Source: an uncultured bacterium (GTDB lineage Bacteria; Cyanobacteriota; Vampirovibrionia; Gastranaerophilales; Gastranaerophilaceae). From it: 64,000 nt of DNA. Below, piece by piece: positions 18,759-64,000 of the stretch. Location: assembly GCA_902777605.1 (NCBI GenBank), contig CACYUI010000001.1, positions 1 to 64,000 of the forward strand, read 5' to 3'. The notes under the pieces are model-generated. The model was not told where the DNA came from and ran no database searches. It saw only the letters and a program-made list of their open reading frames with translations. The translations under genes were made by a program, and so were the position numbers. Every line of letters begins with the position of its first letter. The stretch's first letter is position 1.

Positions 18759-19781
18759 CTATGCGCCTCTATATAATCCCATTTCAATAACTTTTTTGCA
18801 TATCCTTACAGTATTTAGTGCTGCGCCAATTCTCAAATTATCAGCAACACACCATAAAGAAATACCGTTATCAAATGCCAAATTTTTCCTTATTCTGCCG
18901 ACAAATACAGGATCAACCCCGTCCGCATCCCTTGTTGTCGGATATTCAAAGTTCTCAGGATTGTCTATAACCCTAATTCCGTATGAATCCTTAAGAATAT
19001 TTCTCACTTCATCAGGTTCTACTTTTTCACCAAACTCTATATCTACCGCTTCTGAGTGACCTCTAAAAACAGGCACTCTTGCTGCCGTACATGAAATTTT
19101 TGTACTCTCATCCAAGTGAAGAATTTTTCTTGTTTCATTAACAACCTTCATTTCCTCTTTTGTATAACCATTTTCGCAGAATACATCAATTTGAGGAATT
19201 ATATTGAAAGAAATCGGCTTTTTGAAGCATTTATTTTCAAAATCTTCTCCTTTCAATCTTGCTGCAGTATCATCTCTAAGTTCATTCATAGCTGCTAAAC
19301 CAGCTCCTGACACAGATTGATATGTCGAAACAATAAGTCTTTTAATGCCAAATTTCTTTAACGGTTCAAGAACTAACATTAATTGAGAAGTTGAACAGTT
19401 AGGGTTTGCAACAATACCTTTATGCCATCTTAAATCCTCATCATTTACCCCTGCAATTACAAGCGGAACATCTTTATCCATACGAAAAGCTGATGAGTTA
19501 TCAATAATCATAGCCCCACGCTTAACAATTTCGGGAGCAAAATGCTTACTTGTTGAACCGCCTGCAGATGCCATAACAATATCGACATCATCAAAAATTT
19601 CAGGAACCGCCTCTTCTACAGTATATTCCTCACCTTTAAACATAAGTTTTGAACCGGCACTTTTTGCACTTGACAAAAATCTAATACTTTCAAATTCAAC
19701 ATTTAGCTCTTCTGAAATCTTTAAGATTTCTCTTCCTACAACCCCAGTTGCCCCTAATACTGCTATTCTTGGTTTTCTCAT
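18759..19781 (-). CDS. asd: Aspartate-semialdehyde dehydrogenase
   Basis: Reduces aspartyl phosphate to aspartate semialdehyde, the branch point to lysine/diaminopimelate, threonine and methionine. The NADP-binding start IAVLGATGVVGREIL is clear. The catalytic Cys is in NPNCSTSQL, and QSVSGAGLAAMNEL and the substrate-binding RVPVFRGHSEAV are present. 340 residues. Nine bp separate it from dapB upstream, so the DAP branch feeds peptidoglycan from the same operon as lipid A genes. Confidence 0.96.
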   Translation of the reverse strand: MRKPRIAVLGATGVVGREILKISEELNVEFESIRFLSSAKSAGSKLMFKGEEYTVEEAVPEIFDDVDIVMASAGGSTSKHFAPEIVKRGAMIIDNSSAFRMDKDVPLVIAGVNDEDLRWHKGIVANPNCSTSQLMLVLEPLKKFGIKRLIVSTYQSVSGAGLAAMNELRDDTAARLKGEDFENKCFKKPISFNIIPQIDVFCENGYTKEEMKVVNETRKILHLDESTKISCTAARVPVFRGHSEAVDIEFGEKVEPDEVRNILKDSYGIRVIDNPENFEYPTTRDADGVDPVFVGRIRKNLAFDNGISLWCVADNLRIGAALNTVRICKKVIEMGLYRGA

Positions 19782-19789
19782 ACTTTCCT

Positions 19790-20536
19790 TTATAATATAT
19801 TTTCTAAACCGTATACGAAGTTTTTATTGTCAGCTACATACCTAATAGCTAATAATACTCCGGGCATGTAACATTCTCTATCTGTTGAGTCATGTCTTAT
19901 TTTTAATGTTTGACCATTTGAACCAAACACGACTTCCTGTGATGCCATGAACCCTGGCATGCGAACAGAATGTATATGAATATTGTTATAAGAATTGGCC
20001 CCTCTTGCACCTTCTATGGTTTCAGTCTCTTCGCAGTTTCCATATGCCAAATTCTCATTTACATCAGCCATCATTCTTGCTGTCTTTACAGCAGTACCTG
20101 ATGGGGCATCCTTTTTTTGATTGTGATGAAGCTCTATAATTTCTGCATTATTAAAATACTTAGCCGCAATCTGTGCAAATTTCATCATCAAAACAGCTCC
20201 AGTTGAAAAATTAGGAGCTATTAAACAACCTACTTGTTTTTCTTCAGAAAGCTTTTTTAATTCACTAATCTGTTCATCACTTAACCCTGTAGTTCCTACT
20301 ACAGTATGAATATTATTATTTAAGCAATATAAAGCATTTTCATAAATGGATTTCGGTTGTGTAAAGTCTACCAAAATGTCAATATTAACAGAGTTTTTTG
20401 CATCTTTTATCGTTACAAACTCTCCGTTGTTAATATCAATCTTTGCAACCAGTGTCATATCTTCAGCATCATTAACCGCATTAATGACCTGTTGTCCCAT
20501 CTTCCCGTTAGCACCACAAACTGCTATATTAATCAT
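19790..20536 (-). CDS. dapB: 4-hydroxy-tetrahydrodipicolinate reductase
   Basis: Reduces HTPA to tetrahydrodipicolinate in lysine/DAP synthesis. INIAVCGANGKMGQQVI is the nucleotide-binding start; VGTTGLSDEQI, APNFSTGAVLMMKFA and the catalytic ELHHNQKKDAPSGTA follow. At 248 residues it is normal. It is the first gene of the dapB-asd-small ORF-rfaE2-lpxD-lpxC-fabZ operon. dapA is encoded far away at 56188. The intergenic DNA upstream also holds the HLR1-like box and small RNA on the plus strand. Confidence 0.96.
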   Translation of the reverse strand: MINIAVCGANGKMGQQVINAVNDAEDMTLVAKIDINNGEFVTIKDAKNSVNIDILVDFTQPKSIYENALYCLNNNIHTVVGTTGLSDEQISELKKLSEEKQVGCLIAPNFSTGAVLMMKFAQIAAKYFNNAEIIELHHNQKKDAPSGTAVKTARMMADVNENLAYGNCEETETIEGARGANSYNNIHIHSVRMPGFMASQEVVFGSNGQTLKIRHDSTDRECYMPGVLLAIRYVADNKNFVYGLENIL

Positions 20537-20597: not shown

Positions 20598-20615
20598 TTT
20601 GTAACGATTTGTAAC
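20598..20615. promoter_or_regulatory. Exact HLR1-type box (RpaB-family site) between dapB and a small RNA
   Basis: The plus strand has TGTAAC-GATT-TGTAAC (20600-20615). The minus strand reads GTTACAAA-TC-GTTACAAA, an exact match to the HLR1 consensus (KTTACAWW-N2-KTTACAWW). It lies 62 bp upstream of dapB on one side and 20-51 bp upstream of three candidate -10 elements (20635 TATAAA, 20648 TATTAT, 20666 TATAAT) on the other. Confidence 0.65.
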
Positions 20616-20646
20616 AATATGCAGCGCATTGCGTTATAAAAAGTAT

Positions 20647-20740
20647 ATATTATGGTATATACAAATATAATCTCTTTTCTTTATTTTCTCCTCCACTCCT
20701 TTATCTAACGAGTTAATGCCGCAATGATATGCGGCTTTTT
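20647..20740 (+). ncRNA. Candidate small regulatory RNA with anti-Shine-Dalgarno tracts
   Basis: No ORF, but a complete transcription unit is visible: an HLR1 box and AT-rich -10 candidates, a pyrimidine-rich body, and an intrinsic terminator (20718-20740). The body contains CTCCTCC (20688-20694) and ACTCCTTT (20695-20702), both complementary to Shine-Dalgarno sequences used by genes in this window (for example GGAGG, AAAGGAG). The start is uncertain (20647 to about 20678), giving about 60-95 nt. In cyanobacteria the small RNA PsrR1 is controlled by RpaB through HLR1, so the arrangement has a precedent; homology to PsrR1 is not claimed. It could instead be an attenuated leader of the gene at 20826. 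Confidence 0.55.
20718..20740 (+). terminator. Terminator of the candidate small RNA
   Basis: Stem GCCGCA/TGCGGC (20718-20723 and 20730-20735), 6-nt loop, T5 run then GTTGT; 85 bp before the next ATG. Confidence 0.75.
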
Positions 20741-20825
20741 GTTGTAAAAACATCTGTTATTTATTTATACTGTGTAATATATTTGTGGTATTCCATACGG
20801 TATATATGTGAGTTAAAATATAAAT

Positions 20826-21140
20826 ATGAATACAGAAACGGAAGATACAGCTCTAAAGATGGTAGGATTGGAACTTATGTTCCTTACTCCCGAAAAATAC
20901 AGTAATGAAGACGGCATTACTGCAGTTGAGCTTGCTAAACTTGTTAATCTTCCGATTGATACGGTTAAAAAGAAGTTAAAAATATTACAAGAAAAAGATA
21001 TCGTAAGAGTAAAAGGAATAAACCCAAAATACTGGCTATTTGACGACTATAATTTCCAGAGATTGGACGATGACGATGAAATTTTTCATCTTCTCTGCAA
21101 TTTTGAAGATGTTGATTTTGACAAATACTTCACATATTAG
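20826..21140 (+). CDS. Small winged-helix protein, probable regulator
   Basis: A 104-residue protein with a helix-turn-helix at about residues 30-60: GITAVELAKLVNLPIDTVKKK followed by LKILQEKDIVRVKG, the wing pattern of MarR/ArsR-type readers. The C-terminus (after residue 75) is very acidic (DDDDEIFHLL) and may be a dimerisation or interaction tail. No ligand site is apparent. No Shine-Dalgarno precedes the ATG; TAAAAT at 20814-20819 would start transcription at about the ATG itself, so a leaderless mRNA is possible. It overlaps the convergent queH by 4 bp. Confidence 0.7.
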   Translation: MNTETEDTALKMVGLELMFLTPEKYSNEDGITAVELAKLVNLPIDTVKKKLKILQEKDIVRVKGINPKYWLFDDYNFQRLDDDDEIFHLLCNFEDVDFDKYFTY

Positions 21141-28338: not shown

Positions 28339-29553
28339 ATGATTTTGTTGTATTGTTCAATATCTTTTTGTATAGGCGCAATTATTTCTGCGCTGGCTGT
28401 TCGTATTATGATGTCTAAAAAAACATCCGAAAATCAGGAAGAATTGGTTAGATTAAAGACAAAACTTGAGACATTAGAAAATCTGCAGGAAATTATAAAG
28501 CGTGATTTTGTACAACTTGCAAATGAAACTATCAAAAACGAACAAGAAGATTTGAGAAAACAAAACAGAGAAACTTTAGAAGAAAAGATTCTGCCTCTTA
28601 CTAAAGAGCTTGGAGAATTTAAAGACAAAGTAGAAAAGTTCAATCTTGCGGGAGTTCAAAATACAACAAAGATTGTTGAACAAATCGGGAATTTGGAAAA
28701 GAATAACAAAATTATTGAACAAGAAGCAAAAAATCTTGTTGATGCGCTAACTAAAAACCAAAACACAAAAGGTTCATACGGTGAAAATCTTTTAGATACT
28801 ATTCTTCAGTCTTGTGGGATGCAAGAAGGAGTGCATTATACAAAACAGTTTGTGACAACATCCGCAAACTTGAAGGATGATTCTGAACACATAATAAGAC
28901 CTGATGTTGTTATAAATCTTCCTAACAACAGGCATCTTATTATTGATTCTAAAGTAACTCTTACAAGTTATTTGGAATATATAAAAGACCCTGACAAAAT
29001 AAAAGAATTTAAAACAGAAGTCAAAAAGCGTATTACAGATTTAGCAAACAAAAATTATCAAAATGCGGGAGATCTTTCACAGCCCGATTTTGTACTTATG
29101 TACATGCCGGTAGAAACCTCAGTTAATCTTCTCTACGAAGATTATGATTTGATAAGCAGTGCATACAAATCTAATATTATTATTGTAGGGACAGCTTCAC
29201 TTTTGACAGCAATAAGACTTGTTAATCAACTTCTTGCGCAACAAAAACAGAACGAAAGTGTTAACCAAATTGTTAATGCAGGAACAAATCTTTATGAAAC
29301 ATTTGTTCAATTCTGCGAAGATTTAATTGATGTTCAAAAAAGATTTGACGGAGTTTCATCTCAACTTAATAAAACTATAAACAGATTCAAGAGAGGAAAT
29401 AAAAATAAACCGAGCCTGTTTTCTCAGGTAGAAACACTAAAAGAGTACGGTATAAATTCGGTTAAGGAAATTCCTTCAGATTTGCTTATAGAAGATGATA
29501 TTATGGAAAAAGATTCGGCAGAAGAATTGGATGGAGTTTTTGCAAATGAGTAA
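28339..29553 (+). CDS. rmuC: DNA recombination protein RmuC
   Basis: A 404-residue protein with an N-terminal membrane helix (MILLYCSISFCIGAIISALAV), a coiled coil at about 30-150, and the RmuC nuclease-like domain after residue 150: KGSYGENLLDTILQ, RPDVVINLPNNRHLIIDSKV, and QPDFVLMYMPVE. RmuC limits inversions at short repeats in E. coli and belongs to the PD-(D/E)XK superfamily. Its last 8 bp overlap the start of the RpaA-like regulator, so the two are translated from one message. Confidence 0.93.
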   Translation: MILLYCSISFCIGAIISALAVRIMMSKKTSENQEELVRLKTKLETLENLQEIIKRDFVQLANETIKNEQEDLRKQNRETLEEKILPLTKELGEFKDKVEKFNLAGVQNTTKIVEQIGNLEKNNKIIEQEAKNLVDALTKNQNTKGSYGENLLDTILQSCGMQEGVHYTKQFVTTSANLKDDSEHIIRPDVVINLPNNRHLIIDSKVTLTSYLEYIKDPDKIKEFKTEVKKRITDLANKNYQNAGDLSQPDFVLMYMPVETSVNLLYEDYDLISSAYKSNIIIVGTASLLTAIRLVNQLLAQQKQNESVNQIVNAGTNLYETFVQFCEDLIDVQKRFDGVSSQLNKTINRFKRGNKNKPSLFSQVETLKEYGINSVKEIPSDLLIEDDIMEKDSAEELDGVFANE

Positions 29554-30241
29554 AATTCTTGTTATAGATGATGATCATGCAATAAATGAACTTATAAAAA
29601 TTAATCTTGAGCTTCAGGGCTATCAAGTCATACAAGCATTTAACGGTGTTGAGGGTTTTGCGTTAGCAAAACAAGAAGAGCCGTCATTAATAGTTTTGGA
29701 TGTTATGATGCCTGAAGTTGACGGGTTTACCGTAGCTCAGAGAATAAGACAATGTCCCGAGATAGCTGAAACTCCAATTATCATGCTAACAGCACTATCT
29801 GAACTGAATAACAAAGTTAACGGCTTTAATATAGGTGTAGATGATTATTTAACAAAGCCTTTTGAGATAGATGAGCTTGTTGTAAGAGTGAGAGCTCTTC
29901 TTAAGCGAACAAAACAAATTCCAAAATCATCAGCGGTCAGGGAGCTTTTAAACTACAAAGAAATTACACTTATTCCTGAAACATACAGCGTGCAAATAAA
30001 TGACAAAGTTCAAAAATTGACACCTATAGAATTTGATATATTTAATTTATTATTCCAAAATCACGGAAACATGGTTTCAGGCTCAAAAATTCTAAAAGAT
30101 ATATGGGGATATGAGCCTGACGACAATGTTGAAACAATAAGAGTTCATATAAGACATTTACGCTCAAAAATTGATAAAATCTCCGACGGAAAGCAATACA
30201 TTGAAACCATATACGGTGGCGGCTATAAATTAAATGTGTAG
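29546..30241 (+). CDS. rpaA: RpaA-like OmpR-family response regulator
   Basis: A 231-residue two-component regulator. The receiver has the acidic pocket DDD (8-10), phosphoacceptor Asp52 in LIVLDVMMPEVDGF and Lys104 in YLTKPFE. The winged helix covers about 130-231. Compared from memory with cyanobacterial RpaA, the match is unusually close in diagnostic places: ILVIDDD-AI-EL, LNY followed by TLIPE in the linker, and the recognition region WGYEPDDNVETIRVHIRHLR. RpaA is the circadian-clock output regulator in cyanobacteria and RpaB its HLR1-binding paralogue. The ATG at 29546 overlaps rmuC; a longer frame from 29495 lacks support. No kinase gene is adjacent. RpaA orthology should be tested by a tree. 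Confidence 0.85.
   Translation: MSKILVIDDDHAINELIKINLELQGYQVIQAFNGVEGFALAKQEEPSLIVLDVMMPEVDGFTVAQRIRQCPEIAETPIIMLTALSELNNKVNGFNIGVDDYLTKPFEIDELVVRVRALLKRTKQIPKSSAVRELLNYKEITLIPETYSVQINDKVQKLTPIEFDIFNLLFQNHGNMVSGSKILKDIWGYEPDDNVETIRVHIRHLRSKIDKISDGKQYIETIYGGGYKLNV

Positions 30242-63502: not shown

Positions 63503-64000
<498 letters not shown>

Follow-up and report, generated by a model that had tools for sequence, protein, structure and literature searches.

The question raised by positions 20598-20740 of this 64,000-nucleotide stretch of DNA (hereafter the window) is whether a non-photosynthetic relative of the Cyanobacteria carries a small RNA gene under the control of RpaB, and if so, how such an RNA would act. 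The original prediction was of a compact non-coding unit following an HLR1 box, a candidate small RNA analogous to the cyanobacterial small RNA PsrR1.

Organization of the small RNA gene

A strict HLR1 match (KTTACAWWNNKTTACAWW) lies in minus-strand orientation at 20598-20615; it agrees exactly with the consensus KTTACAWW-N2-KTTACAWW, and it is conserved and phased upstream of a promoter. The elements of the unit are as follows.

20598..20615, minus strand: HLR1 box, predicted RpaB site (GTTACAAATCGTTACAAA on the minus strand, TTTGTAACGATTTGTAAC on the plus strand)
20633..20638, plus strand: -35 element GTTATA, at near-fixed spacing to the RNA across loci
20653..20661, plus strand: extended -10 element, TGG plus TATATA (TATATA at 20656-20661; WATAYA in relatives)
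20668..20740, plus strand: predicted small RNA of about 73 nt, with an inferred 5' end and the terminator T-run as its 3' end
20672..20709, plus strand: 38-nt CU-rich, invariant single-stranded region CTCTTTTCTTTATTTTCTCCTCCACTCCTTTATCTAAC, the putative pairing region
20706..20715, plus strand: possible small hairpin, UAAC-loop-GUUA (alignment columns 35-38 with 43-46)
20718..20740, plus strand: Rho-independent terminator, a 6-bp stem (20718-20735) and T5, GCCGCA-ATGATA-TGCGGC-TTTTT

The first anti-Shine-Dalgarno tract, CTCCTCC, occupies 20688-20694 and the second, ACTCCTTT, occupies 20695-20702; the box, both tracts and the terminator are all present, as had been proposed. The body, which had been described as CU-rich and unstructured, is mostly unpaired over its 38 nt in folding prediction, the 3' terminator stem being the sole stable stem and the unpaired region extending to approximately 40 nt. 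As for the AT-rich -10 candidates, a promoter is indeed present, but its conserved form, GTTATA-N17(TGG)-TATATA, is more specific than was claimed; a consensus promoter scan missed it. Taking GTTATA as the -35 and TATATA (20656-20661) as the -10 element, we infer a start site near 20668. TATAAT at 20666 was rejected as the -10 element because it is restricted to this genus and close relatives. The UAAC-GUUA hairpin is weak in the window species, in which the loop is shorter, and relatives with two extra bases have a GNRA-type loop; its columns are 97.7% paired yet almost invariant, and hence uninformative for covariation.

The terminator scan gave an expectation of 0.1 such sites in a region of equal size, and CTCCTCC occurs 27 times on both strands of 840 kb of the organism's own genome. 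These single-genome statistics are modest by themselves, and the reality of the unit is settled by its conservation.

Conservation and distribution

A BLASTN search with 20598-20745 recovered this stretch from 31 of the 34 genomes of the genus, with DNA identities of 82-97%, and the three genomes with no match are all incomplete (83-91% complete). The 38 nt, with both anti-Shine-Dalgarno tracts, are invariant across all 30 aligned species of the genus, as is most of the terminator stem. Covariance searches of related genomes, the check suggested with the original prediction, revealed homologues throughout the family: among 383 genomes of the order, a narrow model built from the genus sequences found them in 198, and a broad model built from 41 sequences found them in 216 of 382 genomes of the class, representing 31 genera, nearly all of one family, and almost always in single copy. 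The body has diverged in other genera, with types such as UUCUUUAUUUUCUCCUACACACUAACCUUUUACC and CUCUUUAUACUUUCUCUUCCACUCCUUUUCUCCAUG; UUCUUUAUUUUCUCCU is retained in two of the three sequence types and the second anti-Shine-Dalgarno tract is gone from many genera. Across the family compensatory changes preserve the terminator stem: there are 33 double-changed cells as compared to 8.8 in shuffles, and 97.8% of cells are paired, in an alignment fitted to a stem-containing model and thus with counts biased toward pairing. Divergent homologues also turned up in two further families of the order, with E between 2.9e-4 and 7.6e-4, and an HLR1-like box lies upstream of each even though the model used for this search excluded the box. 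In photosynthetic-class genomes the model gave chance-level matches only (best E 0.018), and homologues in photosynthetic Cyanobacteria were rejected on this basis.

An exact 22-base pattern matched at least 114 stretches in 84,980 named GTDB genomes; 113 of the 114 among the matches listed are this unit, while the remaining one (L301) is on inspection a chance match. The titles of most of the listed matches are Candidatus Gastranaerophilales, Melainabacteria, or uncultured gut or rumen bacterium. Three MAG contigs with the full Gastranaerophilales RNA unit are titled Fusobacterium (L291), Clostridiaceae (L314) and Acinetobacter (L323), which suggests misbinned or mislabelled records. A BLAST match in G051 (L123) and the weak matches L434-L438 were rejected on inspection as chance or antisense. 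Genome G012 carries a second RNA copy (L165, G012:C31) that is nearly identical to that of another genus (L163 in G326, L164 in G140); L163 has the same flanking genes, and either horizontal transfer or bin contamination might be responsible.

Searched against Rfam at gathering thresholds, the whole window yields tRNA alone and the small RNA has no family match; at E<=5 the small RNA gives weak chance matches alone. A literature search of open-licence papers found no account of a small RNA in this lineage. Judged by these comparisons of sequence, the predicted RNA is a real new family, missing from Rfam, that in a non-photosynthetic lineage has kept an RpaB box, and we hold it to be almost certain that 20598-20740 is a stand-alone small-RNA gene. 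There is thus strong support for the central proposal, that a cyanobacterial relative without photosynthesis has a compact non-coding RNA gene preceded by an HLR1 box; RpaB itself is encoded too, as described below.

Independence from neighbouring genes

In the window the unit is flanked by dapB (19790-20536, minus strand, TIGR00036) and a wHTH-like ORF (20826-21140, plus strand, 104 aa). The placement between these two genes was described correctly but is incidental, as other genera, and some species within this genus, have the whole unit without either of them. The neighbours vary and lie on either strand; dapB is nearby in much of the genus and in 42 of the 79 loci examined for it, and unrelated genes take its place between genera, including those for an Era GTPase, an asparaginase-like protein, an ABC ATPase, FtsZ-like and Nus-like proteins and unrelated ORFs (names from sequence reading). 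Box, promoter and RNA nevertheless stay together across genera despite these differing flanks. Among the relatives fetched, the wHTH gene adjoins the small RNA only in the window, and its upstream context is different in every relative. The wHTH-like gene (no NCBIfam match) is itself conserved in unrelated neighbourhoods (window, L002-L028), and in many relatives a promoter-like motif, GAGTTATAAT, precedes its ATG by approximately 10 bp, as would fit a leaderless transcript.

These neighbourhoods bear directly on whether there is a separate RNA at all. The terminator and box might instead serve dapB or the downstream wHTH gene as an attenuator or leader, and dapB does start 61 bp from the box and accompany more than half of the examined loci; this is already contradicted, however, by the variable neighbours and by the loci that lack both genes, and we consider it very improbable. 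A cis-acting leader of the wHTH gene was rejected because of that gene's changing upstream context, and the terminator precedes the gene while relatives have GAGTTATAAT just before its start. The box was likewise rejected as a dapB element, since it stays with the RNA where dapB is elsewhere and since boxes in this genome usually have their gene on the side opposite to that of dapB here. Because the flanking genes differ between genera, a cis-acting main function is ruled out and a trans-acting RNA is the natural reading. Equally improbable in our view is that the unit encodes a small protein or is a DNA element that is never transcribed. Strong DNA conservation alone is no proof of transcription, but the promoter and terminator are conserved too, with compensatory pairing; as for a protein, no conserved ORF was found in the predicted small RNA region, the sole ATGs of the RNA in the window come after the invariant block, beside or inside the terminator, and relatives differ by out-of-frame indels.

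RpaB and its predicted sites

Homologues of RpaB, RpaA and NblS in Melainabacteria were noted in 2013 in eLife, possibly with another function (PMC3787301). The genome studied here encodes three OmpR-type regulators, one of which (C1:216764-217555) scores 353 bits against the RpaB equivalog NF045944, above its cut-off of 330 bits, while the other two score below; it shares 71-74% identity with putative orthologues in photosynthetic-class genomes. Within the window, an OmpR-type response regulator (29495-30241) is closest to the RpaB model but reaches 204 bits, well below the cut-off of 330, and no histidine kinase is among the listed ORFs beside it.

The strict HLR1 pattern occurs at 53 sites in this genome versus 2 for a reversed-pattern control (approximately 25-fold). 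Across the genus there are 32-102 sites versus 0-6 for the control, and in other families of the order 4-13 versus 0-5. Of the 25 sites sampled within 840 kb of this genome, 23 fall between genes, in sequence of which approximately 11% is intergenic by our script's own simple gene calls. A gene start lies in one consistent direction from 20 of these 23 (exclusively there for 14) and only in the opposite direction from two; applied to the box at 20598, this direction points to the small RNA and not to dapB. HLR1 boxes stand before three flagellin genes, a Na/Pi cotransporter gene and, in the opposite direction, dnaN. Boxes also precede two long proteins with no Pfam match (MGMAASQARL...). This photosynthesis-free gene set, with examples in the genome (G000) at C11:134588, C11:136905 and C10:28470, is expanded in the genus as compared to other families of the order. 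No HLR1 boxes were seen at flagellin genes in the examined stretches of G119, a genome of a different genus, and we therefore do not claim the flagellin link family-wide.

At the small RNA itself, 79 distinct loci share the upstream order HLR1 - GTTATA - N16/17 ending in TGG - WATAYA. GTTATA is present in 53 of the 79, with near-variants in most of the remainder, and TGG or GGG precedes the -10 element in 73, 16-17 nt after GTTATA. An HLR1-like score of >=22/26 is found upstream of the RNA in 79% of family loci versus 1.9% of shuffles. Box and GTTATA are separated by 16-18 bp in 58 of 72 loci, by 6-7 bp in seven and by 27 bp in seven, spacings that differ from one another by a helical turn. 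With TATATA as the -10 element the box would lie at approximately -70 to -53; were TATAAT at 20666 used instead, it would fall at -80 to -63, beyond the range published for activation. HLR1 activates at approximately -66 to -45 and represses at -38 to +23 (PMC13421787). The predicted position is close to the activating range, so activation is favoured, and from position, orientation and helical phasing we regard it as probable, although not proven, that RpaB activates this promoter.

Predicted targets and mode of action

Strong ungapped pairing scores with the RNA were reached by 30 of 814 start regions, versus a mean of 10.7 (maximum 16) in 25 dinucleotide shuffles. When G119 was included, in which the RNA has the same pairing region (1.05 Mb, 257 orthologue pairs), nine orthologue pairs paired strongly in both species, versus 1.2 (maximum 5) in shuffles and 2.7 (maximum 7) when the anti-Shine-Dalgarno core was kept and the flanks alone were shuffled. 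Pairing at start regions thus exceeds shuffled controls, in statistics that are modest: an anti-Shine-Dalgarno sequence complements many ribosome-binding sites by default, and gene starts came from a simple script. A gapped duplex ranking (duplexfold) was dropped in favour of ungapped scoring with shuffles because its duplexes were unrealistically long. The candidate targets include a FlgE/F/G-type flagellar gene at C1:140909 and flgC at C14:44068 (both Pfam-supported), along with groEL at window position 63515, asd at 18759-19781 of the window and a CoA ligase (names from sequence reading); all are predictions, and we name them with low confidence.

On present evidence the best account, and quite a probable one, is of a trans-acting RNA of approximately 73 nt, activated by RpaB via HLR1, that represses several mRNAs at their ribosome-binding sites. 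RpaB bound approximately 53-70 bp upstream of the start would most likely activate the promoter, the transcript would end at its own terminator, and the unpaired CU-rich region would pair with the ribosome-binding sites of several mRNAs, blocking translation initiation. The proposed pairing step draws on the sequence itself and on a complementarity to start regions that exceeds the controls, and such translational repression is, in our estimation, probable. The gene, promoter, box and terminator are conserved and RpaB is present; transcription, the direction of regulation and the targets are predicted from the sequence.

Alternatively, RpaB might repress the RNA, which would then rise on RpaB release. 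PsrR1 sets the precedent (PMC13421787, PMC12850537), our start site is a predicted one, and in seven of 72 loci the box is 6-7 bp from the -35 element. We nonetheless think repression unlikely, as 16-27 bp separate the box from the downstream GTTATA in 65 of the 72, which places it outside the repressing range of -38 to +23, at constant helical phase. Slightly less likely still is a real RNA that acts mainly on a protein or another RNA, as a sponge or by chaperone binding, with its conservation imposed by that partner and RpaB control being secondary. An invariant stretch of 38 nt across 30 species exceeds the usual seed, the uneven retention of UUCUUUAUUUUCUCCU and the second tract would fit such a partner, and Yfr1 is titrated by Yfr2 in Prochlorococcus (PMC6778093); the Shine-Dalgarno-complementary CU tracts and the conserved start-region pairing above controls, however, fit mRNA targeting.

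Comparison with known small RNAs

PsrR1 (SyR1) of Synechocystis belongs to the RpaB regulon and is a post-transcriptional repressor of target mRNAs (PMC13421787, PMC12850537). Its induction follows a shift to high light, as RpaB lets go of the promoters it represses, and it controls photosystem I and phycobilisome genes. The likeness lies in an HLR1/RpaB-linked small RNA with, as predicted here, anti-Shine-Dalgarno pairing. In contrast to PsrR1, the box geometry suggests activation by RpaB, and the photosystem I and phycobilisome target genes are absent. The comparison with PsrR1 covered the Rfam search at E<=5, in which no cyanobacterial small RNA family matched, and the model search of photosynthetic-class genomes, which gave chance-level matches only. 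The proposed PsrR1 analogue thus holds only in outline, for the box and the predicted pairing; the box position favours activation, and these searches found no relation in sequence.

Yfr1 is a near-universal cyanobacterial small RNA of 54-69 nt in which a GC-rich terminator hairpin comes after a CU-rich core that is left unpaired (PMC2190773), a layout shared by the present RNA; the core UCUCCU(A/C)CAC bears a loose resemblance to ACUCCUCACAC. Yfr1 is reported as constitutive (PMC6778093), whereas the RNA described here stands behind HLR1. The Yfr1 undecamer ACUCCUCACAC is absent from the small RNA, with no exact occurrence in 19 genomes of the order, and folding gave no 5' hairpin of the Yfr1 type, in which two stem-loops surround a 16-20 nt unpaired stretch; on these two grounds Yfr1 membership was rejected. 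RsaE/RoxS of Firmicutes has an anti-Shine-Dalgarno action. It is C-rich, conserved and controlled by a two-component regulator; in B. subtilis, RoxS responds to nitric oxide (PMC4409812). The present RNA is similarly conserved, C-rich and, as predicted, linked to a two-component regulator, but in another phylum and with another regulator, and there is no Rfam match between them. PsrR1, Yfr1, RsaE/RoxS and the present RNA would be alike in outline, each setting an unpaired C-rich tract against ribosome-binding sites.

Implications

We speculate, tentatively and in the knowledge that it may well prove otherwise, that gut relatives of the Cyanobacteria possess an RpaB-HLR1 small RNA circuit without photosynthesis, which would restrain translation of flagellar, chaperone and metabolic mRNAs and tie in the HLR1 boxes before three flagellin genes of this genome. 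RpaB and HLR1 are, to our knowledge, known almost solely from the control of photosynthesis. If the circuit is real, control by RpaB and a small RNA is not bound to light and may predate oxygenic photosynthesis. For RpaB in a non-photosynthetic gut lineage there is now a specific candidate output, itself ultraconserved, together with a set of HLR1 sites, and its role outside photosynthesis becomes directly testable.
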